Under the pieces are notes generated by a model. That model was given only the letters and a program-made list of their open reading frames with translations. It had not been told where the DNA came from and did no database searches. Below are positions 8,772 through 31,951 of a stretch of 34,108 bases of DNA, in pieces. The DNA is taken from NCBI GenBank assembly GCA_937923965.1, contig CALDTL010000058.1:1-34108 (forward strand), given 5' to 3'. Within the stretch, counting starts at the first letter, position 1. Every line of letters starts with the position of its first letter. Source of the DNA: an uncultured Caulobacterales bacterium. GTDB lineage: Bacteria; Pseudomonadota; Alphaproteobacteria; Caulobacterales; Maricaulaceae. The translations under genes and the position numbers were made by a program.

Positions 8772-11507
8772 TTATTGATCGACCAAAATGGTCCAACCTT
8801 CGTACCAAGTGTCGTCCGCATCCTCGACAGCACCAACGTAGGTCGCCGCATCAAAGAACGGGTCGATAGTAGAGGGATCAGTCGCTGTTGTGGTCGTATC
8901 CGTCGCGCCGGGAACATATTGCTCATCAGAAACTGATGTCGTTCCCGTCGTGACGTTGTTTGCACCGGCTGCGAAAGCTGCAACTGTGGCAGCATCGCCA
9001 TTGTCGTCATCTGTCTCTAGGTTCTCAGCGTTACCAACGACCAGCATCGAGTCGAATGTCACATTACCGGCAGTGGCTTGCACAGCGGTTTCATCGGAGT
9101 CGATATCAACGCCCGCATCTTGGAACCCTGTGATAAGCCCGTTTAAAAAGCTACCAGCTGTGCCTGCGCGGATGACCATGCCCGTGTCGCCCGAGGCACC
9201 ACCAACAAATGTGAAGTTGGAAACAGTTGGATTGGAGCGCGGAAGTAATGTGTTGTTAGAAGAGCGGTTATCGCCTTCGATACCGCGGTCACCCGCGTCA
9301 TCAGATTGATCAACAATGACGAACTGGGCTTTGCCTGTCCAGCCATCTGTCCAATCCATGCTATCATCACCATTACCCGTTAGGACAACGTGTTTGACGT
9401 TGACGGTTCCGCCGAAGAACTCGACGCCATCATCTGCATTGTTGTGAACCTGAATGAAATCAACCTGCGTACCATTACCAACACCTTGGAAAGCAATACC
9501 GTTTAGTTCGTCTTCGTCGTTAATGAGGTTGCCCGCGAAAGAAACGCGCGTGTAGAAAAGGTTGCCGGAGTTATCCGTAGCAGAGTTACCACCAAACAAG
9601 CCTGATGACCCCTCACCCGACTTCTCACAATCAGCCGTCCCGCCAATTGCCGTCGCATCAATACAGTCATTGATAGGCGCACGTCCGTTGATGATCAAAC
9701 CACCCCAAAGCGCACGATCTGTTGCCAGATCAGCTGTGCCGAAAACTTCATCACGCGATGTCATGTTGACTGGAGCAGAGGCCGTTCCGTTTGAACGAAT
9801 TTGCGAACCGCGCGAGATAACAAGGTAATCTTCACCTGACGCACCGAAAATTGTTGTGCCCGCATCAATCGTCAAAATCGCTGTTGTAGCCGCCGCATCA
9901 GGCGCTGCAGCATCGCCGCCGACATCTTCACCAACAAAGACTGCGCCTTCGAGTTGGTAAACAAAGTTACTGTTAAGGCGTGTATTTGATGTAATCGTCC
10001 CAGTTAGGGAACAGATGCTCTTTCCGCCGACAACGTCGCCAGTTGCAAGCGTACCCGTAGGGCATTCTGTTGAGCCCTCAGTAACACCGAATGTCCAACC
10101 CGTGGCCCAATTGCTATCAGCTGTCTCAGTAGGCCCAAACGCGCCAATATAATCAACATCGTCAAACCCGGTTTCCGTTGACAAATCATAAGGCGTAACG
10201 GCGAGCTCTGCAGCACCCGGGAAGAACTCGTCTGAAAGTGAGCTGTTTCCTTCAACGACATTCGCTGAACCGAGAATATAGGCTTCGGTGTCAAATGTTT
10301 CGCCGCTATCGAGATTTTCGATATTGTCAGCATTATCTAGGAATAGTGAGGCATATGTAAGACTTCCATTTTCAGCCCGCGCAATTGATCCGTCGTCGAT
10401 ATCAATCCCTGCGTCCTGGAAACCAGTGATAATACCGTTGACGATATTCCCGTCTGTGCCCGCCCGATTGACAACCCCAGAATCGCCTGCAGCGCCGCCG
10501 AGGAAAGTAAAGTTCGCAATTGTTGGGTTAGAGCGCGGCGTTAGATCATTGTTTGAAGAGCGATTGTCGCCTTCGATACCCCGGTCACCCGCGTCATCAG
10601 CTTGAACAACAAGTACATATTGTGCGCCGCCGACCCAGCCGTCTGTCCAGTCAAGACTGTCATCTCCAATACCTGTCAGAACTAGGTAGTTACACTGAAC
10701 AGATCCGCCGAAAAACTCGACGCCATCATCTGCGTTGTTGTGAACTTGGATGTGATCACATGTTGTCCCAGAGCCTACACCTTGGAATGCGATACCGTTA
10801 AGCTCGTCCTCGTCATTGATGAGGTTACCAGCATATTTTACTTGCATATATTGAAGCGTACCTGAGCTATCTGTTGGGTTATCGCCGCCAAATAAGCCTG
10901 AAGACCCTTCGCCCGATTTCTCGCAAGCAGCTGTTCCGCCTGTCGCATTTGCGTCGATACAGTCATTGATTGGCGCGTTACCGTTAATGACTAAACCACC
11001 CCAAAGCCCGCGATCAGTGTCCGCGACGGTACCTTGGATATCTTCGATTGATGTCATGATAACAGGTTCAGTTGCGGTGCCTGTTGCGTTCAACCGGGAA
11101 CCGCGTGTGACGACGAGATAATCTTCGCCGCTTTTACCAAAAACAGTTGTACCAGCCGGGATTGTTAGAGCAACGCTCGTTCCGCCGTCTTCGCCTACGA
11201 AAACAGGCCCGTCCAGAGCATAGCCGTTCTCAGACGTGAGTGTGAGGTTCTCAGTGATTGTGCCAGTGATTGTACACGCCTCAACAGTACCCGTCGCACC
11301 GTCAATAGTTTCGAGAGTCGTACCCGTTGGACAGGCATCATTCGGCACAAGGTCAAAATCAGCCGCAACAACGGGTGTACTCGTGTCGCCGCCACCAATA
11401 ACGACTGGTGTTGTATCACCCGGCGACGACGTTGTCGCAGAGTCACAAGCCACTAGTGATAAACTAGTGACGGTTGCGAGTAACAACCCGCGTAAAGAAA
11501 TAGACAT
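8772..11507 (-). CDS. Lipoprotein with two tandem ~425-aa repeat domains (beta-helix-like)
   Basis: Lipobox LSLVACD; two near-identical halves (NGIAFQGVG.GT..D.IQVHNNADDGVEFFGG, GDRGIEGDNRSSNN.L.PRSNPT); adjacent to the TBDR on the same strand. Confidence 0.9.
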   Translation of the reverse strand: MSISLRGLLLATVTSLSLVACDSATTSSPGDTTPVVIGGGDTSTPVVAADFDLVPNDACPTGTTLETIDGATGTVEACTITGTITENLTLTSENGYALDGPVFVGEDGGTSVALTIPAGTTVFGKSGEDYLVVTRGSRLNATGTATEPVIMTSIEDIQGTVADTDRGLWGGLVINGNAPINDCIDANATGGTAACEKSGEGSSGLFGGDNPTDSSGTLQYMQVKYAGNLINDEDELNGIAFQGVGSGTTCDHIQVHNNADDGVEFFGGSVQCNYLVLTGIGDDSLDWTDGWVGGAQYVLVVQADDAGDRGIEGDNRSSNNDLTPRSNPTIANFTFLGGAAGDSGVVNRAGTDGNIVNGIITGFQDAGIDIDDGSIARAENGSLTYASLFLDNADNIENLDSGETFDTEAYILGSANVVEGNSSLSDEFFPGAAELAVTPYDLSTETGFDDVDYIGAFGPTETADSNWATGWTFGVTEGSTECPTGTLATGDVVGGKSICSLTGTITSNTRLNSNFVYQLEGAVFVGEDVGGDAAAPDAAATTAILTIDAGTTIFGASGEDYLVISRGSQIRSNGTASAPVNMTSRDEVFGTADLATDRALWGGLIINGRAPINDCIDATAIGGTADCEKSGEGSSGLFGGNSATDNSGNLFYTRVSFAGNLINDEDELNGIAFQGVGNGTQVDFIQVHNNADDGVEFFGGTVNVKHVVLTGNGDDSMDWTDGWTGKAQFVIVDQSDDAGDRGIEGDNRSSNNTLLPRSNPTVSNFTFVGGASGDTGMVIRAGTAGSFLNGLITGFQDAGVDIDSDETAVQATAGNVTFDSMLVVGNAENLETDDDNGDAATVAAFAAGANNVTTGTTSVSDEQYVPGATDTTTTATDPSTIDPFFDAATYVGAVEDADDTWYEGWTILVDQ

Positions 11508-12521: not shown

Positions 12522-14061
12522 GATAGTGTTGAAAAACTCTCCACTTGAACGGTTTTGCGGTTTCTGATTCACTCTGTGTTATTGGCACGGAGAATTAGAT
12601 ATGATGGGTGAACGTCAATCGGGTCAGGACAGTCTGTTTTACGGGTTTAGCCTTGAGTCGCACGTGCCAGATGATCACATTTTGCGGGCAATAGATAAGT
12701 TTGCTGACCTTGGCTTTGTACGTGAACACCTTAAAGATTATTACAGCCATACAGGCCGCCCGTCGATTGATCCTGAACTGATGATTAGAATGTTGCTGGT
12801 TGGCTACTGCTTCGGCATTCGTTCCGAGCGACGTCTGTGCGAGGAAGTTCACCTTAACTTGGCCTATCGTTGGTTCTGTCGCTTGGGGTTGGACGCGCCT
12901 GTTCCAGATCATTCGACACTCTCCAAGAACCGTCATGGCCGTTTCCGTGAGAGTAAATTGCTTCGTGAGTTATTTGAGACAACTGTGCATCGCTGCATTG
13001 AAGAAGGTCTTGTTGGCGGTGATAATTTTGCCGTGGATGCCAGCCGTATTGATGCAAACGCTAATCGCGGCAAAGGGGATCTCAATAACCTTGTTTTGCC
13101 TAAAGCGGTTTTGCATCGCCGTGCGGTCCAGGAGTATATCGCAACATTAGATGACGCTGCCTTTGGCGCGGCCAGTGAGTCAAAATCAAAATATCTCTCG
13201 CCCGTCGATCCCGCGGCGCGTTGGACCCGCACAAACCGCTCTGGCATGGCGGTCTATTCTTACTCTGTGAACTATCTGATCGACTGCGAAGCCTCTGTTA
13301 TCATGGATGTGGAAGGTAGCGGCGCTATACGCCAAGCCGAAGTCAACGTCACACGCGATATGATTGAGCGGGTTGAGGCCACATATAATATGAAGCCCAA
13401 ACGCCTAGCAGCTGATACGGCTTATGGCTCTGCGCCCATGTTGAATTGGCTTGTGGAAGATAAAGATATTGAACCTCATATCCCCGTCTTTGATAAGTCA
13501 GCCCGCAAGGACGGAACCTTTGAGCGAAGTGACTTCACTTATGATGAAGCCGAAGACCGATATATCTGCCCGGCTGGCAAAGATCTAAAACGATACCGCG
13601 TGGCGGGCCGCAGGGCTAAGGCATCAGGTAATGTTCCGAAAGACGGAACCTATCGATACAGAGCGTTGAAAGCTGATTGCGATGCTTGCGCACTAAAACC
13701 CAAGTGTTGTCCGAAGCTACCGGCACGCAAAGTGCCGCGCTCTATTTATGAAAGCTCGCGTGATGTAGCCCGCAACCTGCGCGGCACGGCTGATTATGAA
13801 TTTATGCGCCATGAACGAAAGAAGGTGGAGATGAGCTTCGCTCATCTCAAAGCCATTCTCAAACTTGACCGCTTGCGACTGCGCGGCCCCACCGGGGTCA
13901 ATGATGAGTTTCTCCTCGCCGCAACCGCCCAGAATCTTCGGAAAATGGCCAAGCTTTACATGAATGGACGCAAAATGAGCACCTCTTAAGGAACGGGGGC
14001 GCTCGTCCAAATTTACTGAGCTGAATGCTCAGAGTTAAACACGGAGTTTTTCAACACTATC
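12522..14061 (+). mobile_element. IS1182-like insertion sequence
   Basis: 18-bp terminal inverted repeats GATAGTGTTGAAAAACTC (12522-12539; complement ends at 14061) flank an intact transposase. Possible CCCC target duplication. Confidence 0.88.
12601..13989 (+). CDS. IS1182-family transposase
   Basis: N-terminal IS5/IS1182-like region (PDDHILRAIDKFADL...GRPSIDPELMIRMLLVGYCFGIRSERRLCEEV); DDE-like residues in FAVDASRIDAN, LAADTAYGS, RKKVEMSFAHLK. Confidence 0.92.
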   Translation: MMGERQSGQDSLFYGFSLESHVPDDHILRAIDKFADLGFVREHLKDYYSHTGRPSIDPELMIRMLLVGYCFGIRSERRLCEEVHLNLAYRWFCRLGLDAPVPDHSTLSKNRHGRFRESKLLRELFETTVHRCIEEGLVGGDNFAVDASRIDANANRGKGDLNNLVLPKAVLHRRAVQEYIATLDDAAFGAASESKSKYLSPVDPAARWTRTNRSGMAVYSYSVNYLIDCEASVIMDVEGSGAIRQAEVNVTRDMIERVEATYNMKPKRLAADTAYGSAPMLNWLVEDKDIEPHIPVFDKSARKDGTFERSDFTYDEAEDRYICPAGKDLKRYRVAGRRAKASGNVPKDGTYRYRALKADCDACALKPKCCPKLPARKVPRSIYESSRDVARNLRGTADYEFMRHERKKVEMSFAHLKAILKLDRLRLRGPTGVNDEFLLAATAQNLRKMAKLYMNGRKMSTS

Positions 14062-14146: not shown

Positions 14147-15379
14147 CTAAGCACCTTCGCAGTAAGCAGTCCAATCTTCCATAAGACGCCTTCTCTTTTC
14201 CAAGGCACTACGCCTCCTGTAAGCTTGCTCTACTTTGTTCCCAATTTTATGTGACAAAGCCGCCTCAGCAATTTCACGCGGATGGCTTGTATGGTCGCCA
14301 CACCAGTCTCGAAATGAGGATCTAAACCCGTGCACGGTAGCGTTCTCGACCCCCATCCGGCGCATGAGCATATTCATTGACATATTACTCAAAGGGCGCC
14401 CTGGTTTAGCTCCTGGGAAAACGTATTCCGAGGATTTAAATAAGTGTGCCTGCCTGAGGACGGCTAGCACTGTACCCGTTAATGGAATTGTGTGTTCCAA
14501 CTTGTTTTTCATTCGTTCTGCAGGGACTGTCCAAAGCTTATTTTCCAAATCGAGTTCAGACCACGTAGCCTCTAAAGTCTCGCTGGTCCTCGTGGCTGTG
14601 TGAATGGCAAACTGTAATGCCAGCGCCGACATACCTTGCTCTTTTTTCAAGCTCAAAAAGAACTCAGGTATTTTCTCATAAGGCATTGCAGCAAAATTGC
14701 GCTTTTTCAATTTATCCCGTTTTGGCAAAAGGTCTTTGAGATGCCCCTTCCAACGAGCAGGGTTTTCACCTTCACGCCATTTGTGCGCAGCGGCATAATC
14801 TAAAATTCTTTCTATGCGGGACCTTAAGCGTCTCGCCGTCTCCTCTTTCTCCTGCCAAATAGGCTTTAGAACCTTGAGTACATCATCCGTGTCAATATTG
14901 CTCACCGGAATGTTCCGGATGGGTTTACAATAATGCGAAATTGTTCGTATCCATTGTTGTCGATGTTTCTCATTAGTCCAATCTGCTTGCAGTGTTTCAA
15001 CAAGGTGATCAGCCGCTTCACCAAATGATTTCACGACGCGCTTTTTACTCTCATTTATAGGATCTTGACCATCCGCAATCAGCTCGCGAGCAAGCTGCGC
15101 TTTTTCTCGGGCTTTAGCTAGGGACACATCCGGAAAACCTCCCAGGCCCATCTCTCGGCGACGGTGGTTCCTGTTCCACATATAGACCCATGACTTACGT
15201 CCTGTTTTTTTGACAAGTAGATATAAGCCTTTACCATCACTGTGCCTGCCAGGTGATTTAACGCTCATCACCTTACGAGTTGAAAGTTTGTGAAAGCCGG
15301 CCAAAAGTCTCTCCTGCAACAGAGGGAATCGAACTAGCGTTCCCACTTCTATCCCTACTTTTGTTCCTACTTTGTGCAT
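14147..15379 (-). CDS. Tyrosine-type site-specific integrase (P4-like, DUF4102 N-terminus)
   Basis: SDGKGLYLLVKKTGRKSWVYMW...GLGGFPDVSLAKAREKA; catalytic motifs HTATRTSE, VHGFRSSFRDW, SHKIGNKVEQAYRR. True start uncertain. Confidence 0.93.
   Translation of the reverse strand: MHKVGTKVGIEVGTLVRFPLLQERLLAGFHKLSTRKVMSVKSPGRHSDGKGLYLLVKKTGRKSWVYMWNRNHRRREMGLGGFPDVSLAKAREKAQLARELIADGQDPINESKKRVVKSFGEAADHLVETLQADWTNEKHRQQWIRTISHYCKPIRNIPVSNIDTDDVLKVLKPIWQEKEETARRLRSRIERILDYAAAHKWREGENPARWKGHLKDLLPKRDKLKKRNFAAMPYEKIPEFFLSLKKEQGMSALALQFAIHTATRTSETLEATWSELDLENKLWTVPAERMKNKLEHTIPLTGTVLAVLRQAHLFKSSEYVFPGAKPGRPLSNMSMNMLMRRMGVENATVHGFRSSFRDWCGDHTSHPREIAEAALSHKIGNKVEQAYRRRSALEKRRRLMEDWTAYCEGA
15339..15374. 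repeat. Three tandem 12-bp imperfect repeats at the integrase 5' end
   Basis: GTTCCCACTTCT / ATCCCTACTTTT / GTTCCTACTTTG, contiguous. Confidence 0.6.
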
Positions 15380-15768: not shown

Positions 15769-16482
15769 ATGGAGACAATCGACGTTCGACCTGCCGTAAT
15801 CGGCACGATCGAGGCCCTAGGCATAGGTCGCCTTTATCACAATTTTTGGTGGGATAGAGTCAGCCGGCGACAAACGCCATGGACGGATTGGTCCCGGAAA
15901 AATCGTGTTGTTTTTATCCACGTTCCAAAGAACGCTGGCACAAGCCTTTATGAAACCTTTGGAATGGATATTCCGGATAATACACATTGTCCCGTGACTG
16001 GGTATCTCGCCTCCGATGCTGCGTGCTACCATGACTCCTATTCCTTTGGATTTGTCCGCAATCCCTGGGATAGAATAGTCTCGGCATTTCATTATTTGAA
16101 GCACAAACCCATAAGCCAAGATGACAAGCGTTGGGCATCGCTAACCCTTGCCCCGTTCAAGACATTTGAAGACTTTATGATGGAGATGGAACGTCCCAGT
16201 TTTCGTAATCGCGTCGTCGGCTGGCGGCATTTCAAACCGCAATGGCATTTCCTCACTGACTGGTCCGGGCGCAATGCCGTTGACTATATTGGACGCTTCG
16301 AAACCTTAGCCGAGGACGTGGACATTATCGGGAAAGCCATCGGGATCACGCCGCAACTCACACTCAAAAACAGCACGGAACGGCAACCTTATTCCAATTA
16401 TTTCACGCCCGAAAGCCGGCGGCTAGTCGCCAGAATTTATGCCAAAGACATCGAGCGATATAAATACGCTTGGCACAGTTAA
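15769..16482 (+). CDS. Sulfotransferase family protein
   Basis: VVFIHVPKNAGTSLYETFG (5'-phosphosulfate-binding-loop-like) and FGFVRNPWDRIVSAFHYL (3'-phosphate-binding-like), as in Sulfotransfer_2. Confidence 0.87.
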   Translation: METIDVRPAVIGTIEALGIGRLYHNFWWDRVSRRQTPWTDWSRKNRVVFIHVPKNAGTSLYETFGMDIPDNTHCPVTGYLASDAACYHDSYSFGFVRNPWDRIVSAFHYLKHKPISQDDKRWASLTLAPFKTFEDFMMEMERPSFRNRVVGWRHFKPQWHFLTDWSGRNAVDYIGRFETLAEDVDIIGKAIGITPQLTLKNSTERQPYSNYFTPESRRLVARIYAKDIERYKYAWHS

Positions 16483-16503
16483 AACCAAACAGGGGCACGC
16501 AAA

Positions 16504-17169
16504 ATGACAACAGACGCAGCAGCGATGGCAAGCTTATCTCATCACGAGAGCGCAAACCAAGATGAGACCCGCCCGCCCCCTACGGGCGCTAAGGGATCGG
16601 ACCTTATCAGCGAGCGCGGGTTCTGGCGGGTCGTCCGCGAGGACTTTCGCACACACCGTAAAATGGCGCTGGCGCCCGGATTTCATGCCATATTCGTTTA
16701 TCGCTTCGGAACATGGGTTGATACCATTCGGTTAAAACCGCTCTATGCCGTTCTGAATGTCATTTGGCATCTCGCATATCGATGGGTTCGAAATTTTTAC
16801 GGCATTGAAATGGAAAAAACGGTCAAGGCCGGGCGACGCCTCGAGCTTGGCCATCAGCACTGCATCGTTATTCATGCAAACGCGACGATCGGCGACGATG
16901 TCCTGATCCGTCATAATGTCACTTTTGGCATGGGAAATGAGTGGATTCAGGGCGTAGGGCCTATCATCGGTGACCGTGTCGAATTTAGTCCGGGCGTCGT
17001 CTTAGTCGGCAACGTAACGATCGGAGATGACGTATCGATCGGTCCGAACTGTACGGTCACAACAAATGTTCCTAGCAGCCGAACCTTATTCGTACCCCCG
17101 CCGCGCGTCATGCCAAAACAAGGGCCTCCGCCCAACCTCGCCAAGACTGTTGACGCCGCAAAACCATAA
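16504..17169 (+). CDS. Hexapeptide-repeat acyltransferase (serine acetyltransferase/CysE-like)
   Basis: Left-handed beta-helix repeats (ATIGDDVLIRHNVTFG, IIGDRVEFSPGVVLVGNVTIGDDVSIGPNC); SAT-like central region. Confidence 0.85.
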   Translation: MTTDAAAMASLSHHESANQDETRPPPTGAKGSDLISERGFWRVVREDFRTHRKMALAPGFHAIFVYRFGTWVDTIRLKPLYAVLNVIWHLAYRWVRNFYGIEMEKTVKAGRRLELGHQHCIVIHANATIGDDVLIRHNVTFGMGNEWIQGVGPIIGDRVEFSPGVVLVGNVTIGDDVSIGPNCTVTTNVPSSRTLFVPPPRVMPKQGPPPNLAKTVDAAKP

Positions 17170-17212
17170 AGTCTCTCAGAAACAAATTTTATTGATTAGA
17201 AAGGAAATCCTT

Positions 17213-17506
17213 ATGTCCCTCTCCCGAGAACAGGCCGTTACAGCCATTTACGAGGCCATCGACGAACTTAACCCACAATTAGACGGCATCAGTCTTGAAC
17301 GATCCGAAGACACGATACTCTTCGGTGAAGGCGCTGCGCTAGACTCGCTAAACCTCGTTAATCTTGTCATGATGGTTGAGCAGAATATCATGATGGAAAC
17401 TGGCACAGAAGTTCTGCTGGCCAGCGAAGCCGCCATGTCAAGAAAGCGCAGTCCCTACCGTTCAGTCAAAGCCCTAGCGGATTATGCCGCAGAGGTGGCG
17501 GCGTGA
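17213..17506 (+). CDS. Acyl carrier protein-like phosphopantetheine-binding protein
   Basis: MSLSREQAVTAIYEAIDELNPQL...GAALDSLNLVNLVMMVEQ; DSL attachment motif. Track ORF starts at 17027, but ATG 17213 with aaaggaaat upstream is more likely. Confidence 0.82.
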   Translation: MSLSREQAVTAIYEAIDELNPQLDGISLERSEDTILFGEGAALDSLNLVNLVMMVEQNIMMETGTEVLLASEAAMSRKRSPYRSVKALADYAAEVAA

Positions 17507-18207
17507 GCGACCAAAAACCCGTTATGGCCATCACCGGAACCCGTAAGGGGATCGGACGTTTTCTAGCTGAGCATTTTCTCAATCAAGGCTATATCGTTGA
17601 AGGATGTTCCCGCGGCGAAGCTGATCTGGAACATGACGACTATCGCCATCATTGTCTGGACGTCGCAGATGAGAAATCCGTCATCAGTATGATGCACGCG
17701 ATTTACCGGAGTCATAAGCGACTAGATGTTCTCATTAATAATGCCGGGATAGCGAGCATGAACCATATCATGCTCACACCAAAATCTCAGATCGAGCGAA
17801 TTTTTGAAACCAACGTATATGGAACGTTCCTATTTGCACGGGAAGCCGCCAAGCTTATGGGCAGACGAAAATACGGACGGATCGTCAATACAGCAACCGT
17901 GGCGACTCCGCTGAAGTTGGAAGGCGAAGCCGCTTATGCTGCCTCAAAAGCGGCTGTTGTATCATTAACAGAAATCATGGCACGGGAGGTCGCGGGATTA
18001 GGCATAACAGTCAATGCCGTTGGCCCCACGCCCGTCCCAACCGACCTCGTCGGGTCTGTTCCGCAAGCCAAGATGGACGCCCTGATTGCTCGCCAGGCCA
18101 TACCCCGTTATGGAGAGATGGCTGATGTGCTAAACGTTATCGAGTTTTTCATCCGAAAAGAATCCGATTTCGTCACAGGGCAAACGATTTATATGGGCGG
18201 AGTCTAG
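17503..18207 (+). CDS. Short-chain dehydrogenase/reductase (FabG-like)
   Basis: TGTRKGIG, NNAGIA, YAASKAA motifs; 4-nt overlap with the ACP gene. Confidence 0.92.
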   Translation: MSDQKPVMAITGTRKGIGRFLAEHFLNQGYIVEGCSRGEADLEHDDYRHHCLDVADEKSVISMMHAIYRSHKRLDVLINNAGIASMNHIMLTPKSQIERIFETNVYGTFLFAREAAKLMGRRKYGRIVNTATVATPLKLEGEAAYAASKAAVVSLTEIMAREVAGLGITVNAVGPTPVPTDLVGSVPQAKMDALIARQAIPRYGEMADVLNVIEFFIRKESDFVTGQTIYMGGV

Positions 18208-18214
18208 ACGGGTC

Positions 18215-19558
18215 ATGATTGGGCGCCTCATAGAAAGAATGGAGATTGTTCGCGGCCAGATTGCCGTTGTCGCCTCCGGCACGCCTGTTTCTTATGGCGA
18301 ATTACTCGAGAGCATTACCGACTGGGGAAAGCTTTTAGACGCTCAAGGTATCGGGCCCGGCGACGTGGTTTTGCTGAAAGGCACCTTCTCGCGCGCGTCG
18401 ATTTCTGCGCTCATTGCCCTTTTTCAGAAGCAAGCAATCGTGATTCTGCTGGCGCCCACATCATACGAGAAGGAAGCCGAGTTTTTGGAGGTCGGCCTCG
18501 CGCAATGGAAAATTCAAGCCAATAGCGGAGACATTGCGCCGCGCGAAACAACGGCCGAGCACCCCCTATACGAGACACTTCGTAAGGCCGAAGACCCGGG
18601 GCTTGTGCTCTTTTCGTCGGGCTCGACCGGTGTGTCCAAAGGCACAGTCCACAGTGCGGCGCGGCTCTTAAGTAAGTTTGCTACGCCCGGGAAGAATTTG
18701 CGAACGCTGGCATTCCTTTTGTTTGACCACATCGCCGGCGTCGACACGCTTTTCTATAGCTTGTTCAACCAGAGCACACTTGTGCTTCCCGAAAATCGCT
18801 CGCCCGAAGCCGTTTGCGCGCTCATCGCAAAACACCAAATCGAGGTACTGCCGACTGCGCCAAGTTTCCTCAACCTATTGCTCTTATCAGGCGCGCATGA
18901 AGCTCATGACCTAAGCTCACTGAAAATCATCACTTATGGTTCGGAGATGATGCCTGCATCGACCTTGCAACGCTGCGCGGAGGCTTTTCCTAATGTGCGT
19001 CTCATTCAGAAATATGGAACATCCGAAATCGGGGCCCCTCCCTCGAAATCCAAATCCAACGACTCGACCTGGGTAAAATTGGGCGGCGACGGTTTTGATT
19101 GGCGGGTGGCAGACGGAAAATTAGAAATATTGGCAAAAACCGCCATGCTCGGGTATCTCAACGCGCCCAGTCCCTTCACGCCAGACGGCTATTTTATCAC
19201 AGGCGACGCGGTCGAGGTGGATGGCGACTACGTGCGTTTCCTCGGGCGCGATAGCGATATCATCAATGTCGGCGGGCAGAAGGTGTTTCCGGCAGAAGTT
19301 GAAAATCTTATCCGTAAATTGCCTGAGGTCGAGGATGTTTCTGTTTACGGGGAACCCCATGCTATCCTTGGCGCGGCGGTTGTTGCAAAACTTAAACCCG
19401 TAAATTCTGAGGCGTCGCTTAAAGCCTTACGCATAGCGATCAGAGGTGCCCTCTCGGGGCAGATTGAGCCCTATAAAATACCTCAGAAATATGTACTGAC
19501 GCAAGAGAGCCTCACAACGGCCCGAGGTAAACAAATCCGCCGAACAAAGGACGGATAA
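18215..19558 (+). CDS. AMP-dependent acyl-CoA/acyl-ACP ligase
   Basis: LFSSGSTGVSKGTVHS, QKYGTSEIG, YFITGD, TARGKQIRR adenylation motifs. Confidence 0.9.
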   Translation: MIGRLIERMEIVRGQIAVVASGTPVSYGELLESITDWGKLLDAQGIGPGDVVLLKGTFSRASISALIALFQKQAIVILLAPTSYEKEAEFLEVGLAQWKIQANSGDIAPRETTAEHPLYETLRKAEDPGLVLFSSGSTGVSKGTVHSAARLLSKFATPGKNLRTLAFLLFDHIAGVDTLFYSLFNQSTLVLPENRSPEAVCALIAKHQIEVLPTAPSFLNLLLLSGAHEAHDLSSLKIITYGSEMMPASTLQRCAEAFPNVRLIQKYGTSEIGAPPSKSKSNDSTWVKLGGDGFDWRVADGKLEILAKTAMLGYLNAPSPFTPDGYFITGDAVEVDGDYVRFLGRDSDIINVGGQKVFPAEVENLIRKLPEVEDVSVYGEPHAILGAAVVAKLKPVNSEASLKALRIAIRGALSGQIEPYKIPQKYVLTQESLTTARGKQIRRTKDG

Positions 19559-19559
19559 G

Positions 19560-19988
19560 ATGCCCCTAATCCCCGAAGGCTTCAGCCCGATGCCGCCGCG
19601 CGGTGCCTTCATAGATTTGAATGGTCCATTTTACCACGACGGACACGTCCAGTTTGGATTCATCCCCAAGGAGCGGCACTGTAATTTACTAGGGTTTGCA
19701 CACGGCGGCATGATCGCGACATTCCTCGACAGCGCGATGGCCCATAGCGTCGTGACCGCACATGGCTACGCCATTGTGACGGAACAGCTGACGATAAATT
19801 ATATATCCGTTGTGGCTAAAAATCGCTGGGCCGAAGTCGAAGTCTGTTTGGATGAACGTGAAGACGATCACATTTTTGCAAAGGCCGTTTTGCAGTCTCG
19901 GGGGCAAATTTGTGCGAAGGGGCAGGCCAATTTCAAACTCTTAGTCAGACGACCTGTTCGAAATGATGGGCGGCAGACGTTGCGTTAA
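19560..19988 (+). CDS. PaaI-family hotdog thioesterase
   Basis: CNLLGFAHGGMIATFLDSAMAHSV: HGG-containing hotdog motif. Confidence 0.85.
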   Translation: MPLIPEGFSPMPPRGAFIDLNGPFYHDGHVQFGFIPKERHCNLLGFAHGGMIATFLDSAMAHSVVTAHGYAIVTEQLTINYISVVAKNRWAEVEVCLDEREDDHIFAKAVLQSRGQICAKGQANFKLLVRRPVRNDGRQTLR

Positions 19989-20897
19989 TCAAAAGTCATT
20001 GATCCGTTCGGGATGAATGCGTCCACGAACCCAATCGAACATTCCCATCCAATTGCCTTTCATTCGCCCCTTGCGGTCAACCCAAGCCTCGGGACGGAAC
20101 GTCTTGGCATGATTGGCAAGAACATTGCGGCCCATAATTCGGCCGCTCTGCCACCATTTCATGGTGCCTTTACGTGCCAAAAAGACAGGATTAGCGATCT
20201 GCGAATATCCAAATTTTATTCCGGAAACTCGGCCGCTCTTGGTGCCTAGGTGCACGCCTTTGCAGGTCCCCACGCCAACGACGCGGCCCTTCGCCAAGGC
20301 CTGTCCCGTATAATCGCGATCTTCGAGCCAGCCATAAGCCGGCAGATGCTCATCAAAACGATAGGCGCGGGTCACCGAACCAATAAAAGCCATATTGCAC
20401 CCGTAAGCGCTTTCTAGCGATTGCCCGATATGCTTGCGCGACTCATGCGGCTCCGGCGGAAGGTCGCCCGACAAATAACGCCTCGCATCAGCCTCGCTAA
20501 TTCCCGGCCCAGTGATTCCATCGGCCAACACCCATCCCGTTATTCCTGCGACGTCATTGTCTCCGAACGCGCGGTGCGCCTGTTCGATCCAATCGGATTG
20601 TGGGCGGTAATCATCATCAAAATAGACCACAAAGAACGCATCATCTTCTGAGCCATGTAGGTTTAATATCGCCTCGATCCCCACATTGCGCTGTATCGGC
20701 AATCCCGGTCGTTTAGAAATTTCAAAACTGACTGATGAATCATCTGCCGCCACGTTACGCCCGTTACCGAAGTCCGCCTCAGATGTACCCACGACCACGA
20801 CATGGTCGGGTTTCATCGTCTGGGTCTTCATTGAATCAAGTATAACTGGAATATCAGCCGGCCGGCCTTTTGTAGCTAAAACGACATAAGCTTTCAT
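19989..20897 (-). CDS. Family 2 glycosyltransferase
   Basis: N-terminal VVLATKGRPADIPVILDSMKTQT, DDDYRPQSDW acidic motif. Confidence 0.88.
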   Translation of the reverse strand: MKAYVVLATKGRPADIPVILDSMKTQTMKPDHVVVVGTSEADFGNGRNVAADDSSVSFEISKRPGLPIQRNVGIEAILNLHGSEDDAFFVVYFDDDYRPQSDWIEQAHRAFGDNDVAGITGWVLADGITGPGISEADARRYLSGDLPPEPHESRKHIGQSLESAYGCNMAFIGSVTRAYRFDEHLPAYGWLEDRDYTGQALAKGRVVGVGTCKGVHLGTKSGRVSGIKFGYSQIANPVFLARKGTMKWWQSGRIMGRNVLANHAKTFRPEAWVDRKGRMKGNWMGMFDWVRGRIHPERINDF

Positions 20898-22138
20898 GAG
20901 GCGATCTCCAATTTACTGGGGTTGGGTTGAACGCTGCGGTAGAGGCTTGCGTAGGCATCGAGCCAGCTATCAAGCGAATTAGCAAGCGCCGCTGTGTCGC
21001 TAAATGCTGCGCGGCTCATCTGCTCGACGCGCGGCGTATTATCGCGAATTTCTATAAGGGCCGAGACAACTGTATCGATTTTCAAGGGATCGAAAGTCAG
21101 GCCTGCGCCCGCATCAACAATATCCCCAGACAAGAAAGCGACTCCGCTAATCAGCACAGGCAGGCCGCTCCACAATGCCTCACCTGCCACCAGACCAAAG
21201 GGTTCCGCTAGGCGGCTGGGAACGATGACGCATCGCGCCTTCGCGGCAAGGGCGGCAAGTTGATCTCGATTGCAAAATCCTGCGAAATGCGCGTCCGGGT
21301 ATTCTTTCGCGAGGTCTTCAAACATCGGGCCATCCCCTGCAAAGACCATTTTCATGCCAGCCTGACGCGCAGCTTCAGCGGCGACATCAGCTCCCTTCTC
21401 AACGCCGAGCCTGCCAATAAATAGGACGGAGGCATTTTCTTCTGCCTGAATACGCGATGACGAATAAGGCTCAATCGGGTTTGCAATTGTGCGAATGCGT
21501 TGGGGCGGTAATCCGGCGCGTTCAAAGAACGGTCCTTGGCGCTGATGGATGACGGCCAGCTGTCCGCGAAAGCGCTTGAGCGGGAATGTATTCGATCGCA
21601 CCGCATGACGGGTCACGCGCCAAGCTTTGTGCATGGCCGACTGCCTATCGCATCGGGTCATTAGACAGGGCAGCGAGTTTCCAACCCGCGTACAAACTTC
21701 ATTTTTCTGAAAATCATATTGTCCGCCATTGCCGCAAGCGAGGAAGTAATCATGCGTTGTCAGTACAAGACGCTCCTCCACAGGGCGAAGCGCCTTGAAG
21801 ACAGCTGGCGAAAGAAAATGCGCCCAATTATGCAAGTGATAGACAGTGTCCGGCGTATCATGCTGAGAAATGAACTTTGTGACCGCATCAAGTGCTGCCT
21901 TGTTCCAAAGCCCCGTTCGCATTGCAGCGCGAGGACTGTCCCGCGAGACCCGTGCGCCTGAGATACCGTGAACTTTGACACCTGCCAACACCAGGCGCGC
22001 ATCCATACCTCCGGCTTGGGTCAAATAGCTGACGTCCCAGCCGCGACCAGCGGCGCCTAGAGCTGCGTCGAGCGCGAGTTTCGTCGCGCCGCCCGCCGTC
22101 ACACCGCTATCATTTATGATCACGAGACGGTTGGTCAT
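20894..22138 (-). CDS. Family 4 glycosyltransferase
   Basis: FIGRLGVEKGADVAAEAA, VPSRLAEPFGLVAGEALWSGLPVL; 4-nt overlap with the GT2 gene. Confidence 0.9.
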   Translation of the reverse strand: MTNRLVIINDSGVTAGGATKLALDAALGAAGRGWDVSYLTQAGGMDARLVLAGVKVHGISGARVSRDSPRAAMRTGLWNKAALDAVTKFISQHDTPDTVYHLHNWAHFLSPAVFKALRPVEERLVLTTHDYFLACGNGGQYDFQKNEVCTRVGNSLPCLMTRCDRQSAMHKAWRVTRHAVRSNTFPLKRFRGQLAVIHQRQGPFFERAGLPPQRIRTIANPIEPYSSSRIQAEENASVLFIGRLGVEKGADVAAEAARQAGMKMVFAGDGPMFEDLAKEYPDAHFAGFCNRDQLAALAAKARCVIVPSRLAEPFGLVAGEALWSGLPVLISGVAFLSGDIVDAGAGLTFDPLKIDTVVSALIEIRDNTPRVEQMSRAAFSDTAALANSLDSWLDAYASLYRSVQPNPSKLEIAS

Positions 22139-24090
22139 TGCGCAGCCCCAAAATCAAAATCTGCAAAGGCAAACTCCGATCCAAAGAGGCTCAGATGGTT
22201 ATCGTCTTCATAGAGCGGTTTATCGTCGACAACGTAAATACAAACCTCTTTGCAGAAACGTTGCATCACCTCATGACGATAGGCGCCGGAGGCATCAACG
22301 AAGGGGCCTATCCGATTGAAAACCCGGCCCCGTTTCTGCGCATGGGCCGCGTCGATAGCAGGCGGCAAGTCTGCGTTGAATCCTAAATTTCGACCGACAG
22401 CATATGATACTGCGAAAGATTGTTCTGGTACGCCTTCTACAATATGGACCGCTTTTCCGGCCGCCTTGAGCCGTTTTATCAAAGCCAGTAATCCTTCATC
22501 GAGATAATTGCGTGAATAATCATCGCCGGCGATGGGGCGAATGGAGGTATCTAGCAACTCAAAGGCAGGCGGCGCGCCAATTTCCCATGCTAAGCCCGGC
22601 TCTGAGTAGCGCGCCCAACGGGCATGCAGAATGACATCTGTTAGCGCATCGTCCGCCAAAATCATCGCCAAAATATTCTCGCGAAACCGTTCGCAAGACG
22701 ACCCGTTATGAAGCGGAGAGCCGCTGACACCAATAAGAGAGGGGCAATCAGAGTGGGAAGCAAGCAGACCACGGCGGCCCTTAGATTTAGCGGCGAGATC
22801 AAATCCATGTGCCGCAGACATTGCATGCGAGTCGCCCCAGAGTACAAAGCTCGGCGTTTTACTCTCATCGCCGATCTTGCAAAGGGCTTCGCGTGTTTTT
22901 AGCTCCATGCATCGTTCACGGTAGAGGTTGCCTTCAGCCGCGCGGAAGGCCGCATTTGTCTTTGCGTCAAATCGATGATCGAGTCCCTGAGCAGAAAATA
23001 CAACAAGCCCCGCCGCAGTGAATGCGGCAATCCCTGCCCCTGAGATCGTGAATATCTGCTTGCGCGAATATCCACGACTGGACCGGAAAGGTTGCTCGAC
23101 AAAACGCCAAGACAAATAGGCCAGCACGACAGAAAGTATCACACCGCTCGCCATCGCCCAGGCTGGGACATGATGCAGACCAAAATGAATATTGAGAAAG
23201 ACTAAAACGGGCCAATGCCAGAGATATAACGAATAGGAGATCAAGCCGATACCAACGAGCGGTTTCCACGAGAGTATCTGTCCCGCAATATTGGTGCCGC
23301 CCCGACCAGCTGCGATAATCATCGCCGTACCTAGAACGGGCGGGAGAGCGGCCAGTCCCGGAAATGGTGTCAACGGTGTGTAAAACACAACGGCGAAGAG
23401 TATCAGCGCCAATCCGATGAGTCCCACAGAATGCCGGACAGACGCAGGCCAAGACATCCCTATCGTAGAGAGCGCAACGATAGCGCCCAACCCCATTTCC
23501 CAGGCCCGCGTTGGAAGCCAGAAAAATGTCGGGTTAGGCGCGTTGCGCACGCCCCATTCCGCTAGGACAAATGACGCAAAGCTAATAAGAGAGACAATCA
23601 CCAGAGGACGGCGTTTAAGACCCTTGATAATCAAGAGCAGCAATATGGGATAGAAAATATAAAATTGTTCTTCGACTGAAAGTGACCACATATGCAGCAT
23701 CGGGTCATACTCGGACGAACTTTGGAAGTACCCGCTGCGCGACCACATCAATATGTTAGCGACATAAAAGACGGTCGCAACAATCGCGGTTCCCATATCC
23801 CGGAATTGGACTGGCGACATAACAAAGAACCCGACGACCAGACTAAAAGCTAAAACAGCAAAAAGTGCAGGCAAAAGGCGTCGTGCACGGCGTTCATAAA
23901 AATGCGTAAAGGTGAATGTGTCTTTTTCGATCCCTCGCATAATGACACTCGTTATGAGGAAGCCAGAGATGACGAAGAAGACATCCACACCCACATAACC
24001 GCCGGAGACAACGGCCAATCCAGCGTGGAAAAGCACCACCGGAATAATGGCAACAGACCGGAGGCCATCAATGTCAGTACGATATTTCAT
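22135..24090 (-). CDS. Acyltransferase 3 family protein with C-terminal SGNH-like domain (OafA-like)
   Basis: YRTDIDGLRSVAIIPVVLFHAG...GGYVGVDVFFVISGFLI; FERRARRLLPALF-like region; C-terminal VLWGDSHAMS. Confidence 0.93.
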   Translation of the reverse strand: MKYRTDIDGLRSVAIIPVVLFHAGLAVVSGGYVGVDVFFVISGFLITSVIMRGIEKDTFTFTHFYERRARRLLPALFAVLAFSLVVGFFVMSPVQFRDMGTAIVATVFYVANILMWSRSGYFQSSSEYDPMLHMWSLSVEEQFYIFYPILLLLIIKGLKRRPLVIVSLISFASFVLAEWGVRNAPNPTFFWLPTRAWEMGLGAIVALSTIGMSWPASVRHSVGLIGLALILFAVVFYTPLTPFPGLAALPPVLGTAMIIAAGRGGTNIAGQILSWKPLVGIGLISYSLYLWHWPVLVFLNIHFGLHHVPAWAMASGVILSVVLAYLSWRFVEQPFRSSRGYSRKQIFTISGAGIAAFTAAGLVVFSAQGLDHRFDAKTNAAFRAAEGNLYRERCMELKTREALCKIGDESKTPSFVLWGDSHAMSAAHGFDLAAKSKGRRGLLASHSDCPSLIGVSGSPLHNGSSCERFRENILAMILADDALTDVILHARWARYSEPGLAWEIGAPPAFELLDTSIRPIAGDDYSRNYLDEGLLALIKRLKAAGKAVHIVEGVPEQSFAVSYAVGRNLGFNADLPPAIDAAHAQKRGRVFNRIGPFVDASGAYRHEVMQRFCKEVCIYVVDDKPLYEDDNHLSLFGSEFAFADFDFGAAQ

Positions 24091-24104: not shown

Positions 24105-25496
24105 TTAAACGTATCGCGGTTGTTTGGCGCTATAGACGACGACCACGGGCTTTCGCGCCGCAACGGATAGCGCGGCCAGTAATGCAAAATGCAGTCCGGG
24201 ATCTGGTGTTGTCGCCGTGGTTAAACCACCAATAATGAGCGCGGTAAGAGCAACGCCCGCTGCCGTAAAATATTTCTTATATTCAGGATTGGCAAAAGAG
24301 GACGCGCGCGCAAACAGCAAGTTTTTATAGATCCACAGAAACAGCAGCGTGCCTATCAAACCAAAATTAGATATCCAGACGGACAGGATTCCATTTGACC
24401 GCGTTGACCCCAAGCCAATGCCCAGTCCGTAGGATTCGACGCCAATCTCAAGGCCGCGCATCGCCCACTTGCCCCGTTCAAAACCTGAAACAGAGTCCGT
24501 TTTACTAAAGATCAGGTGATCTAGAAAATCGAGTGCAACCACGCCTGCGGGCGTCGCGACCATAGCGAGAGCCACGCTGCTACCGCAGAGAATAAGAAAC
24601 AAGACAAAGGGTTTGGACTGTGCTGAAACGCCGTTCCCGCGCAGGAGATAAAGCGTAAATTGCGCGGCTAAAACTAAGCTCATACCGGCAGCCACAACGA
24701 TGAAGGTTGAAGATAGCGAAAGCATCCCAAAAATGAGATTACCTCCGCCCAAAATGCCTGTGGCTACATTGCGCGTCGAGAACCACATGCGAATAAAGTA
24801 CCCCGCCAACACAGCTGTGAATCCACCAAAACTTGACGCTTCCGGAAAGCCGCCCGTCACGCGCTGCACACCGAGCATTTGGATATCAGTCAGATAGCTA
24901 TAAGTTGCTGTCTGAACAATCGAAAGTATTGCGCCGCCGCCCGCGAGATCTATCGCAGCCAATACAATGTTGACGATGGCAGCTCCCACCAAAGCCTTGT
25001 GAATTAACTCCGGCCCTGATTTTCGGGCCAGTGACAATGACATTAAAAAAACAGCAAATGTCACAAGAAAATACGCTAATTGGGATATGTTGCCGGTTGT
25101 TGGCACAAGCGGCGACAATCCGGAAAAAACGTCCCAACGCAATCGATAGCCCACCACGTTCCGGTCCATCGAGAACACCATAATTTCGCCCATGAACAAG
25201 CGGGGACCGATCATCGTGATCAGCAAGGCATAAATGCAAAGCGCAATGACCAGCAGGCTGGTAAATTCAAACCGAATGGCCGCATCACGCCCCGAGAGGC
25301 TCTTGATAGTCCAGAGACCAAGCAGCATGAGAAAGCTTGCAGAAAAAACCAGGACACTCATACCGCCAACAATGGCGACAGCCGCCGCACCAAAAGGCAG
25401 GAACGCCGTTGCTGCGCGGTAGCCTTGATCCAGACCCCGCGTTGCAAAAAATGCAAATATCGCAAACATCACTAAACCTGAGAGAACGGGGGTCAT
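24105..25496 (-). CDS. Multi-pass membrane protein, probable O-antigen/EPS polymerase (Wzy-like)
   Basis: Hydrophobic throughout with a central soluble loop; sits between GT and acyltransferase genes. Confidence 0.7.
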   Translation of the reverse strand: MTPVLSGLVMFAIFAFFATRGLDQGYRAATAFLPFGAAAVAIVGGMSVLVFSASFLMLLGLWTIKSLSGRDAAIRFEFTSLLVIALCIYALLITMIGPRLFMGEIMVFSMDRNVVGYRLRWDVFSGLSPLVPTTGNISQLAYFLVTFAVFLMSLSLARKSGPELIHKALVGAAIVNIVLAAIDLAGGGAILSIVQTATYSYLTDIQMLGVQRVTGGFPEASSFGGFTAVLAGYFIRMWFSTRNVATGILGGGNLIFGMLSLSSTFIVVAAGMSLVLAAQFTLYLLRGNGVSAQSKPFVLFLILCGSSVALAMVATPAGVVALDFLDHLIFSKTDSVSGFERGKWAMRGLEIGVESYGLGIGLGSTRSNGILSVWISNFGLIGTLLFLWIYKNLLFARASSFANPEYKKYFTAAGVALTALIIGGLTTATTPDPGLHFALLAALSVAARKPVVVVYSAKQPRYV

Positions 25497-26608
25497 GAGC
25501 CCGCCTTTAGCGCGGCGATTTCCGCATCAACAATTGTCTGAATTTCGGCCTGAAAACGGGCTTCATTGAAACTTTGCGCATGGTCCAATATCGCAGCCTG
25601 ATCTAGGTCATCCAACATGTCTGTCTCAAAGCGTTCAATGGCTGCGTTCAGCCCTTCGACAGTCGGATCATCGAAGAAAATACCGGAGAGTCCGTCGACA
25701 ACCGTATCCAGCGCGCCCCCTCGTCCAAAGGCAATAACGGGACGACCCGAAGCCATGACCTCGACTGGCACGATGCCAAAATCCTCCTCCCCTGGAAAAA
25801 TGAGCGCTCTGCAACGTGCCATGTGGGATTTGAGCGTTTGAAAATCTGTCTTTCCAAGGAAAGTGATATTTTCAGACGCGGACTTGCTCAGTGTCTTGAT
25901 TGCCGTGTCGGGACCGCCAATAACAATCAGGCGGCGACCTGATTTTGCGAAAGCCTCGACCATAATATCCGCGCGTTTGTAAGAGACTAACTCACCCACC
26001 CAGAGATAGAAGTTTTCAACTTCCTCTTTGGCAACGGGGGCGAAGTCTTCAACGAAAACAGGGGGGAAAACCACGCTAGAGTCGCGCCGCCAGAACTTAC
26101 GCACGCGGCGACGAATAAAATTGGAATTGGAGATGATATGGTCAACCCGCGCTGCACTGGTAACGTCCCAACGCCGGAGGGCAGGAGAAATAATAGGCAT
26201 CATCAGCTTTGCCAAAAAGCCCGCTTGATTGCGATATACATGATAATGGTCCCATAAATATCGCATTGGCGAATTACAGTAGCAAATGTGTACGGCGTCT
26301 GGTGAGGTGATGACCCCCTTGGACGGCCCGGACTCGATCGAAATGACTAAATCATAAGGCGTGAGGTCCAACGCCTCCAACGCGGCCGGCATCAGCGGCA
26401 GATATTTCTGATATAGGCGACTTGCGAATGGAAGTCGGGCAATGAAAGTTTCGGTAATTTTATGTCGCTGCAAGGTTTCAGACAGCGCCGATGGATTGGC
26501 TATATGCGTGAAAATATCAGCATCCGGATAGATTCGGCATAATGACTCCACGACTTTTTCGCCGCCCCGCATGTGGAGTAACCAGTGATGGACTATCGCG
26601 ACCCGCAT
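25493..26608 (-). CDS. Family 4 glycosyltransferase
   Basis: MRVAIVHHWLLHMRGGEKVVESLC, LIFPGEEDFGIVPVEVMASGRPVIAFGRGG. Confidence 0.93.
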   Translation of the reverse strand: MRVAIVHHWLLHMRGGEKVVESLCRIYPDADIFTHIANPSALSETLQRHKITETFIARLPFASRLYQKYLPLMPAALEALDLTPYDLVISIESGPSKGVITSPDAVHICYCNSPMRYLWDHYHVYRNQAGFLAKLMMPIISPALRRWDVTSAARVDHIISNSNFIRRRVRKFWRRDSSVVFPPVFVEDFAPVAKEEVENFYLWVGELVSYKRADIMVEAFAKSGRRLIVIGGPDTAIKTLSKSASENITFLGKTDFQTLKSHMARCRALIFPGEEDFGIVPVEVMASGRPVIAFGRGGALDTVVDGLSGIFFDDPTVEGLNAAIERFETDMLDDLDQAAILDHAQSFNEARFQAEIQTIVDAEIAALKAGS

Positions 26609-28879: not shown

Positions 28880-30247
28880 CTAAAGTTGCCAGCGAAGTCC
28901 GAGAAGCAGTCGCGTTTCGTCAAAATCTGATTGTGCAAGCGCCCCTTTTGAATCGAGCGAACGCCGCGCTATCCGCGCCTCCAGTCCGACATTGGGATTC
29001 AATAGAACCAGCCCAGCTAAGTAAAAATCGTTCCGTTTATCCGAGCGGTCGGCGAAATTGTAATCGTCATCAATAAAATCATAACCAGCCGACAAAATGA
29101 CATTTCTGCGGTATTCATAGTCAGCTCTCAAGCCGATCCGTGTTTGTATCGTGGCGGGGGAAATCAGGAGCTCGGAGGAGCGCGTCCCGCGCTCGCCGGA
29201 CGTTGTCACTGTGATAAGCGGCGTCGCAAACCATTCCAGCTCTGCGTCAAAACCAAATCCGTCAACCGTGTCCAACTCAGATGCAACAAAATCTGTCGTA
29301 AAGTACCCCAGCCCGACTTGGCCACGCACAAGACGGCTCAATTCGAAATCAACACCAACTCGTCCATTAATCGTCTGGCGGTTCCGGTCCTGACCTGTAA
29401 TCGGGAGTTGATCATGGTTCACATCGACATAGGCGACGCGGGCGAAAAAAGCGGTTTCAGGGCTGAACGCGTAGTCGGCACGGGCCGCAATGCTGGCCTG
29501 TGTCTGGTCTCGGAAATCTTGATCAATCTCTGTGCCATCCGGTAGCGCGGCATCTTTATAATTAGTCGTGAGAAACTTGCCATCAGCCGACAATCGGCTT
29601 CGGCCAAATTCGCGCGCCACACCCAGAAAAACATTCGTTTGCCCGTATTCAATTGGATCAACGGAGATTTGGCTGGCCCCAATCGCAGTCCGTCCCTCAA
29701 AAGCACGGCGGTAATCCGCGCCAGCGTCGATGCGAACGGCGCGACTCGCGTCCAGCTGTCCGCTCGCCCCTAGGGCATATCCTGTTGTGGATTCCCCTGA
29801 GTTTTCGAAATATTCCTGATGCAAGATATTGGCAAAAGCATCTATTCGGTTCGTATTCCAATCCGAGGCCACACGAATTGTGGGCTGTAAGGTCAAAACA
29901 CCATCGGCTTCTTCGTCTTGGTCTACCGCAAAAACATTATCTGAATAGGCCAAATAGCTATTCAGGCTCGGACGCCAAATAAATGCACCTCGCCGAAGTC
30001 CCTGGCTTTCATATTCCGGACGCGGGCGATCTTGAACACTAATGTTTCGGTCACGATTAAATGCGGACTGAGCCTGAGCTTCAGTCGGCGTTTGCGCATA
30101 GCTGGGAACTTGAGAAAAGGTGAGCGCAGCAAAGCCAACCACGCCAACCGCGCGAAACACGCGAGCTGTCTGGCAAAAGGGCACGTCCCTATTCGCTTTG
30201 GATTCTACATACATGTCAGGTTGCACCCCTTTGACGTTGTTTTGCAA
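28880..30247 (-). CDS. Outer membrane beta-barrel protein of the polysaccharide locus
   Basis: Signal-peptide-like N-terminus, alternating beta-strand pattern, C-terminal LLLGLRWQL. Confidence 0.82.
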   Translation of the reverse strand: MQNNVKGVQPDMYVESKANRDVPFCQTARVFRAVGVVGFAALTFSQVPSYAQTPTEAQAQSAFNRDRNISVQDRPRPEYESQGLRRGAFIWRPSLNSYLAYSDNVFAVDQDEEADGVLTLQPTIRVASDWNTNRIDAFANILHQEYFENSGESTTGYALGASGQLDASRAVRIDAGADYRRAFEGRTAIGASQISVDPIEYGQTNVFLGVAREFGRSRLSADGKFLTTNYKDAALPDGTEIDQDFRDQTQASIAARADYAFSPETAFFARVAYVDVNHDQLPITGQDRNRQTINGRVGVDFELSRLVRGQVGLGYFTTDFVASELDTVDGFGFDAELEWFATPLITVTTSGERGTRSSELLISPATIQTRIGLRADYEYRRNVILSAGYDFIDDDYNFADRSDKRNDFYLAGLVLLNPNVGLEARIARRSLDSKGALAQSDFDETRLLLGLRWQL

Positions 30248-30893: not shown

Positions 30894-30933
30894 TATTTTG
30901 CCCCAAAACGATGTGTCCTTCGCGCCCTCAACC

Positions 30934-31710: not shown

Positions 31711-31951
31711 ATATGTTGCGCCTCCCGCGCCCTAGAACCGCAGGTCATGCGGCACATTTCTACCCTGTAAACCTATAATGAAAGCAGGCCAAAACGCAAT
31801 AATGGGAAGGCTGGGCGTATATTTAGTTGGGAATTAAGAATTTTTACTTTCCCGAAACGCTGATCGTAGTATGCATGATCACATCAAAGACGGGCTTTTC
31901 ATGCGCGTTCGTTGGGGCGCGACCCAAGGACGAAGAACTTTGGGGCACAGA

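Follow-up and report, generated by a model that had tools for sequence, protein, structure and literature searches.

Six adjacent genes next to a polysaccharide locus

The stretch of DNA analysed here, the window, comprises the 34,108 nucleotides of contig CALDTL010000058.1 from an uncultured Caulobacterales bacterium. Six consecutive open reading frames on its plus strand (15769-19988) encode a sulfotransferase, a hexapeptide acyltransferase (HEXA), an acyl carrier protein (ACP), a short-chain dehydrogenase/reductase (SDR), an adenosine monophosphate (AMP)-forming acyl ligase and a hotdog-fold thioesterase (Table 1). All six, which the original prediction had placed on one strand beside a polysaccharide locus, were confirmed by the open reading frame listing and a domain scan. 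Only the last four had been called tightly packed; these are closely spaced, but so is the whole block, where the gaps are, in order, 21, 43, -4, 7 and 1 bases, none exceeding 43, so that the six genes could form one transcript. The block ends at 19988 and meets, at 19989, the end of the first gene of an opposite-strand polysaccharide locus in a convergent layout. As predicted, the Pfam scan found no ketosynthase within the six-gene block, and de novo type II fatty acid synthesis was rejected because none accompanies the ACP and reductase.

A scan with the ligase alignment, using one genome per species, returned at least 477 relatives, of which the best 80 were examined as loci with mechanical gene calls. 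In 67 of the 80, a script located the ACP and SDR genes shortly before the ligase gene on the same strand; inspection put the true count slightly higher, some contigs being cut, and the order ACP, SDR, ligase is kept in at least 67. The hosts of this trio include Chloroflexota, Nitrospirota, Cyanobacteriota, Planctomycetota, Myxococcota, Bacillota and others, and because the order recurs in so many distant loci, the arrangement is beyond chance. HEXA lies directly 5' of the ACP gene only in an alphaproteobacterial group (loci L038, L039, L040, L041, L044, L091 and L169), and a hotdog gene 3' of the ligase is confined to the subgroup that holds the window (L038, L091 and L169). Two culturable environmental bacteria, Halovulum marinum (L040) and Cereibacter changlensis (L044), carry a four-gene version. 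The full order HEXA-ACP-SDR-ligase-hotdog was thus found in four alphaproteobacterial genomes, including that of the window; L170 and L091 are one contig, counted once. Identities between these cassettes and the window were 49-63% for HEXA, 52-68% for ACP, 71-82% for SDR, 53-63% for ligase and 42-46% for the hotdog protein. The HEXA-bearing cassettes were grouped by both the ligase tree (support 100) and the SDR tree (support 99), and since the two trees recover the same group, the pattern is consistent with joint inheritance of the two genes. Judged by gene order and sequence comparison, the five genes are a real conserved alphaproteobacterial unit.

The original prediction had proposed looking for the six-gene set in other genomes. 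Five of the genes do co-occur elsewhere; the sixth, the sulfotransferase, had been included in the unit and probably does not belong there. It carries the 3'-phosphoadenosine-5'-phosphosulfate (PAPS) motifs HVPKNAGTS and FVRNPWDR, and the genome encodes an adenosine-5'-phosphosulfate kinase. A counterpart was found beside none of the related cassettes examined, for which reason it is probably a passenger or local addition, and within the order its relatives turn up sporadically, in 21 of 299 genomes. It may nevertheless act on the same polysaccharide as the acyl cassette. A marine O-polysaccharide with a 2-O-sulfated 3-N-(4-hydroxybutanoyl) sugar is known from Idiomarina abyssalis, according to a title quoted in PMC7281560, an analogy that makes the combination of the two groups chemically plausible and nothing beyond. 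A PAPS-type sulfotransferase-like gene of a related polysaccharide locus (L145:9045-9911, genome G020), so named on its sequence, is unlike that of the window.

Within the order, the ACP was found in 5 of 398 genomes, and a polysaccharide backbone like that of the window occurs in three genomes (G080, G075 and G069), all without the cassette. The cassette is therefore an add-on to the polysaccharide locus, with which the transposase, integrase and TrwC-type relaxase upstream agree. These three features show that the contig is mobile DNA on its left side. No tRNA marking an island end was found, and the G + C content of the block, about 52%, is not distinct from that of the polysaccharide locus, which contains two or three glycosyltransferases. 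Farther upstream, positions 8772-11507 encode a predicted lipoprotein of 911 residues with two similar halves and no Pfam match, adjoining a TonB-dependent receptor.

Table 1. Features of the window, with the evidence for each assignment
Feature	Position	Strand	Basis or location
PAPS-type sulfotransferase	15769-16482	+	PF03567, E 5.5e-15
CysE/WcaB-like left-handed beta-helix acyltransferase (HEXA)	16504-17169	+	PF00132
Dedicated acyl carrier protein (ACP)	17213-17506	+	invariant Asp-Ser, AlphaFold model, Foldseek; no Pfam/NCBIfam match
Short-chain dehydrogenase/reductase (SDR)	17503-18207	+	PF00106/PF13561
AMP-forming acyl ligase	18215-19558	+	PF00501 + PF13193
Hotdog-fold thioesterase	19560-19988	+	PF03061
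Glycosyltransferase	19989-20897	-	weak glycosyltransferase models alone; relatives in related polysaccharide loci
Glycosyltransferase	20894-22138	-	PF00534
OafA-type acyltransferase (Acyl_transf_3 + SGNH)	22135-24090	-	PF01757 + PF19040
Wzy-like membrane protein	24105-25496	-	Pfam
GT4 glycosyltransferase	25493-26608	-	Pfam
Wzz/Wzc	26611-28869	-	Pfam
BBP2 outer-membrane barrel	28880-30247	-	Pfam
Wza	30282-30980	-	Pfam
Metallophosphoesterase	30934-31710	-	Pfam
Wzx-like flippase	31871-33442	+	PF13440, E 1.1e-56
TrwC-type relaxase/helicase	2946-5657		upstream of cassette
Insertion sequence transposase (DUF772/DDE)	12601-13989		upstream of cassette
P4-like integrase	14147-15379		upstream of cassette

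The proteins of the conserved unit

The ACP gene could be read from a longer open reading frame that opens at 17027, but GAAAGGAAATCC directly precedes the ATG at 17213. A search of the PDB with the protein sequence gave CurB as its sole match (E 0.77). The original prediction had named an ACP-like carrier with a DSL motif, and in the alignment Asp44-Ser45 was invariant in all 30 sequences, Ser45 of that motif being the predicted phosphopantetheine site. The AlphaFold model is a helical bundle (predicted local distance difference test score, pLDDT, 89.4) in which a helix spanning residues 45-63 begins at Ser45. The top Foldseek matches to this model were carrier proteins, none with a significant E-value. 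Given the invariant Asp-Ser, the confident model and the carrier proteins as best structural matches, the product is, on the model, an acyl carrier protein whose predicted phosphopantetheine serine opens helix II. One AcpS-family phosphopantetheinyl transferase is encoded in the genome.

The ligase has the conserved SSGSTG-type loop, a GR...INVGG.K motif and Lys439. In the tree, 22 ligases from trio loci and from polyketide synthase (PKS) loci formed one clade against eight generic ligases with a support of 100/100, the outgroup consisting of coenzyme A (CoA) ligases from the alphaproteobacterial order of the window alone. That clade holds TmlQ of the thiomarinol pathway, which was identified on plasmid pTML1, together with TmlS and TacpD, by position near tmlM-like ileS and mupA-like genes. 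TmlQ is either nested within the trio ligases or their sister, both topologies being allowed (approximately unbiased test, p 0.136), and it is the best-characterised relative. On pTML1 it adjoins an SDR and an ACP in the order ligase, SDR, ACP, the reverse of that in the window. Other ligase relatives also adjoin PKS genes on plasmids. A Rhizobium plasmid (L036:7004-12657) carries ACP, SDR and ligase genes followed by a CmlS-like halogenase, where a halogenated small molecule is possible, and a gammaproteobacterial locus (L064:9298-13500) combines a glycan-type trio with a second ligase, an SDR and a thiomarinol-like ACP.

A family search identified the window SDR as FabG-like. Its catalytic tetrad is N-T-Y-K, Thr132 replacing the catalytic serine, as found in 44 trio SDRs; the alignment has 44 NTYK rows versus 14 NSYK rows, the latter including TmlS and the other SDRs of the genome. 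Among the glycan-associated trio SDRs compared (trio loci L038-L116), the lone exception is the basal Rhizobium SDR of L036, which retains serine. The trio SDRs form a clade apart from TmlS, which groups with PKS-plasmid and generic SDRs (support 98), and apart from the 11 other SDRs of the window's genome that were compared. The separate clade and the different tetrad rule out orthology with MupS/TmlS, the reductases of the mupirocin and thiomarinol pathways.

The best relatives of HEXA among solved structures are serine acetyltransferases, and it shares the fold and overall alignment of the hexapeptide O-acetyltransferases CysE, WcaB and EpsC. It falls below all NCBIfam equivalog cut-offs, reaching about half or less of each. 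His117 and His124 are invariant; the catalytic histidine is kept in the alignment, whereas the aspartate preceding it and the histidine of the RHP motif are lost. A CysE serine acetyltransferase was rejected on these two losses and on score (72 versus a curated cut-off of 210.65 bits). The hotdog protein has an HGGM...D motif, with HGGMxAxFLD conserved. The PaaI-type label first given to it had to be dropped, since it scored 25.3 bits against the curated PaaD/PaaI cut-off of 118.9 and reached the 4HBT superfamily level alone.

Glycan context and comparison with known systems

The five-gene cassettes of L038, L091 and L169 all sit among glycan genes. In L169 the block adjoins Wza-, phosphoesterase-, GT8- and Wzx-like genes, and near those of L038 and L091 are genes named from sequence as an RmlC-like enzyme, a nucleotide-sugar epimerase and an RfbF-like cytidylyltransferase. 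The clearest example of a trio in a pseudaminic-acid operon is L089, where Pfam identified PseB-, PseC-, PseF-, NeuB/PseI- and PseG-like proteins, followed in turn by a second cytidylyltransferase, the ACP, SDR and ligase, and a PseH-like GNAT; a PseF-type cytidylyltransferase and this GNAT flank the trio. A GNAT akin to this one lies directly 3' of the ligase in L194 (G349), a locus with polysaccharide genes, and in L192 the ligase is followed by a hexapeptide protein and by an acyltransferase-3-like protein that was identified by its sequence. Among the 44 genes near the downstream end of the ligase, 10 resemble hexapeptide transferases and several fit GNAT models (three models with 2-3 members each). 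A sugar acyltransferase gene is thus often a neighbour of the trio, and we infer that the trio feeds acyl-ACP to whichever sugar acyltransferase adjoins it in each locus. A KASIII-type ketosynthase is present in six trio loci (L072, L081, L082, L095, L099 and L107) and also in L174, so a chain-extending variant of the trio may exist. A LamG/concanavalin-like secreted protein is encoded near the trio in 12 loci, mostly from Chloroflexota and in several cases directly 5' of the ACP gene (among them L050, L051, L059, L066, L070, L086, L088, L105 and L106).

The original prediction knew of no similar system. The trio has in fact been described, with its function unassayed, in flagellin-glycosylation islands: as ACP (orf1), 3-oxoacyl-ACP reductase (orf2) and AMP-dependent synthetase (orf3) in group II islands of Aeromonas, according to a figure legend (PMC7874193), and as acp/fabG/caiC in enterobacteria (PMC4875605). 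The gene types match those of the window in both cases, as does the order listed in the Aeromonas legend; the comparison covers gene types and, for Aeromonas, order, and those records are not among the loci. The Aeromonas article places orf1-3 between pseudaminic-acid genes, as the trio is placed in L089, and glycan acylation is suspected. The islands differ from the window in that the glycan is that of flagellin, luxC/luxE lie alongside and no unit with hexapeptide and thioesterase genes is described. What is conserved here is thus a five-gene alphaproteobacterial version of a known trio.

In mupirocin synthesis, MupQ, MupS and MacpD make 3-hydroxypropionyl-ACP from malonyl-CoA, and the thiomarinol starter is a 4-hydroxybutanoyl unit (PMC10098928). 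Like the window, both pathways have a dedicated ACP, an SDR and a short AMP-ligase, and the ligases belong to one clade; they differ in that the SDR and ACP are of other subfamilies, the gene order is ligase, SDR, ACP and the product enters a polyketide. Membership of the window trio in the MupQ/MupS/MacpD cassette was rejected, because only the ligase falls in the corresponding clade. The original enzymology by Walker and colleagues in 2020 reportedly involved a mixed CoA/ACP thioester intermediate. The WfpC-WfpG proteins of Flavobacterium psychrophilum also resemble the block: the cited portion of the article proposes that an O-polysaccharide-specific ACP feeds a sugar acyltransferase, predicted to N-acylate the sugar, and lists a reductase (PMC6519341). 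That portion names two ketoacyl-ACP synthases and no ligase, the reverse of the window block, where a ligase is present and a ketosynthase absent. A literature search for 3-hydroxypropionyl with O-antigen or capsule yielded nothing useful.

Proposed function and its alternatives

The block is probably a glycan-acylation cassette that attaches a reduced, ACP-borne acid to a sugar of the adjacent polysaccharide. The AMP-ligase would adenylate a short carboxylic acid and load it onto the dedicated ACP, the SDR would reduce the bound acyl group to hydroxyacyl-ACP and HEXA would transfer it to a hydroxyl group (an amine is less likely) on a sugar of the Wzx/Wzy polysaccharide, while the hotdog thioesterase would remove wrong acyl groups from misloaded ACP. 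This sequence of activation, loading, reduction, transfer and editing, already put forward in the original prediction, agrees with two observations, that the five genes are found together in polysaccharide loci and that acyltransferase genes come after the trio elsewhere; its chemical steps are still deduced from the genes.

Several observations weigh against this function: 1) the usual donor of the HEXA family is acyl-CoA, 2) a crude clustering, which had no control set, picked out glycan genes in 45 of the 80 loci, and some of the trio loci have other neighbours, 3) the identity of the window ligase to TmlQ is 35%, 4) comparison of the window ACP with a TacpD-group profile of three sequences gave a probability of 0.5% with the alignment off register, so a carrier of the MacpD/TacpD type was discarded, 5) because the SDR and ACP are not orthologous to TmlS and TacpD, the chemistry of the latter is not transferable and 6) no enzyme assay for any glycan-associated trio was found in the literature.

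The identity of the acyl group could be narrowed in two ways, neither of them favoured. Bacterial glycans often carry hydroxybutyryl groups, and the trio might load a 3-keto acid such as acetoacetate that the SDR, as an ordinary FabG-like ketoreductase, converts to the 3-hydroxybutyryl group placed on the glycan. The FabG-like family assignment and the KASIII-type enzymes of some trio loci fit such ketoacyl chemistry, but the window block lacks a ketosynthase, free acetoacetate is a speculative substrate and the trio SDRs stand apart from the others compared in the genome, so that this version is possible but doubtful. Slightly less likely still is a route like that of MupQ/TmlQ, in which malonyl- or succinyl-CoA is joined through its free carboxylate to the ACP by the ligase, and reduction of the thioester by the SDR leads to an omega-hydroxyacyl group (3-hydroxypropionyl or 4-hydroxybutyryl) on the glycan. 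It draws on the well-supported TmlQ clade, on the mupirocin and thiomarinol starters and on the existence of the sulfated Idiomarina sugar; the distinct SDR clade and tetrad, the failed ACP alignment and the reversed gene order argue against it, and other substrates are equally possible. An extended version, in which the sulfotransferase sulfates the hydroxyl of this omega-hydroxyacyl group and the N-T-Y-K trio is a general, phylum-crossing glycan acyl-donor module with chemistry unlike that of FabG, is improbable.

It is just as improbable that the product of the block is a small secreted metabolite or a signal with no tie to the polysaccharide. Ligase relatives do lie beside PKS genes on plasmids and beside the Rhizobium halogenase, but the block contains no PKS, nonribosomal peptide synthetase or exporter, and its five-gene counterparts are embedded among glycan genes. 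Least likely of all is a degradative or fatty acid-scavenging operon of ligase, SDR and thioesterase brought here by chance after a mobile-element insertion, since the transposase and integrase just upstream and the sporadic occurrence of the cassette are outweighed by a dedicated ACP and a hexapeptide acyltransferase, which are not catabolic, and by the same block in glycan loci with otherwise unrelated surroundings.

The supply of many short acyl groups on bacterial surface sugars is mostly unexplained. If the block is indeed a glycan-acylation cassette, the trio beside varied sugar acyltransferases would be a general source of acyl groups, the donor being acyl-ACP and not acyl-CoA. The DS...SPxR motif of the ACP and the N-T-Y-K tetrad of the SDR would then provide a sequence signature for acylated glycans in genomes, and one ligase family would connect flagellin glycosylation islands, exopolysaccharide loci and antibiotic starter units.

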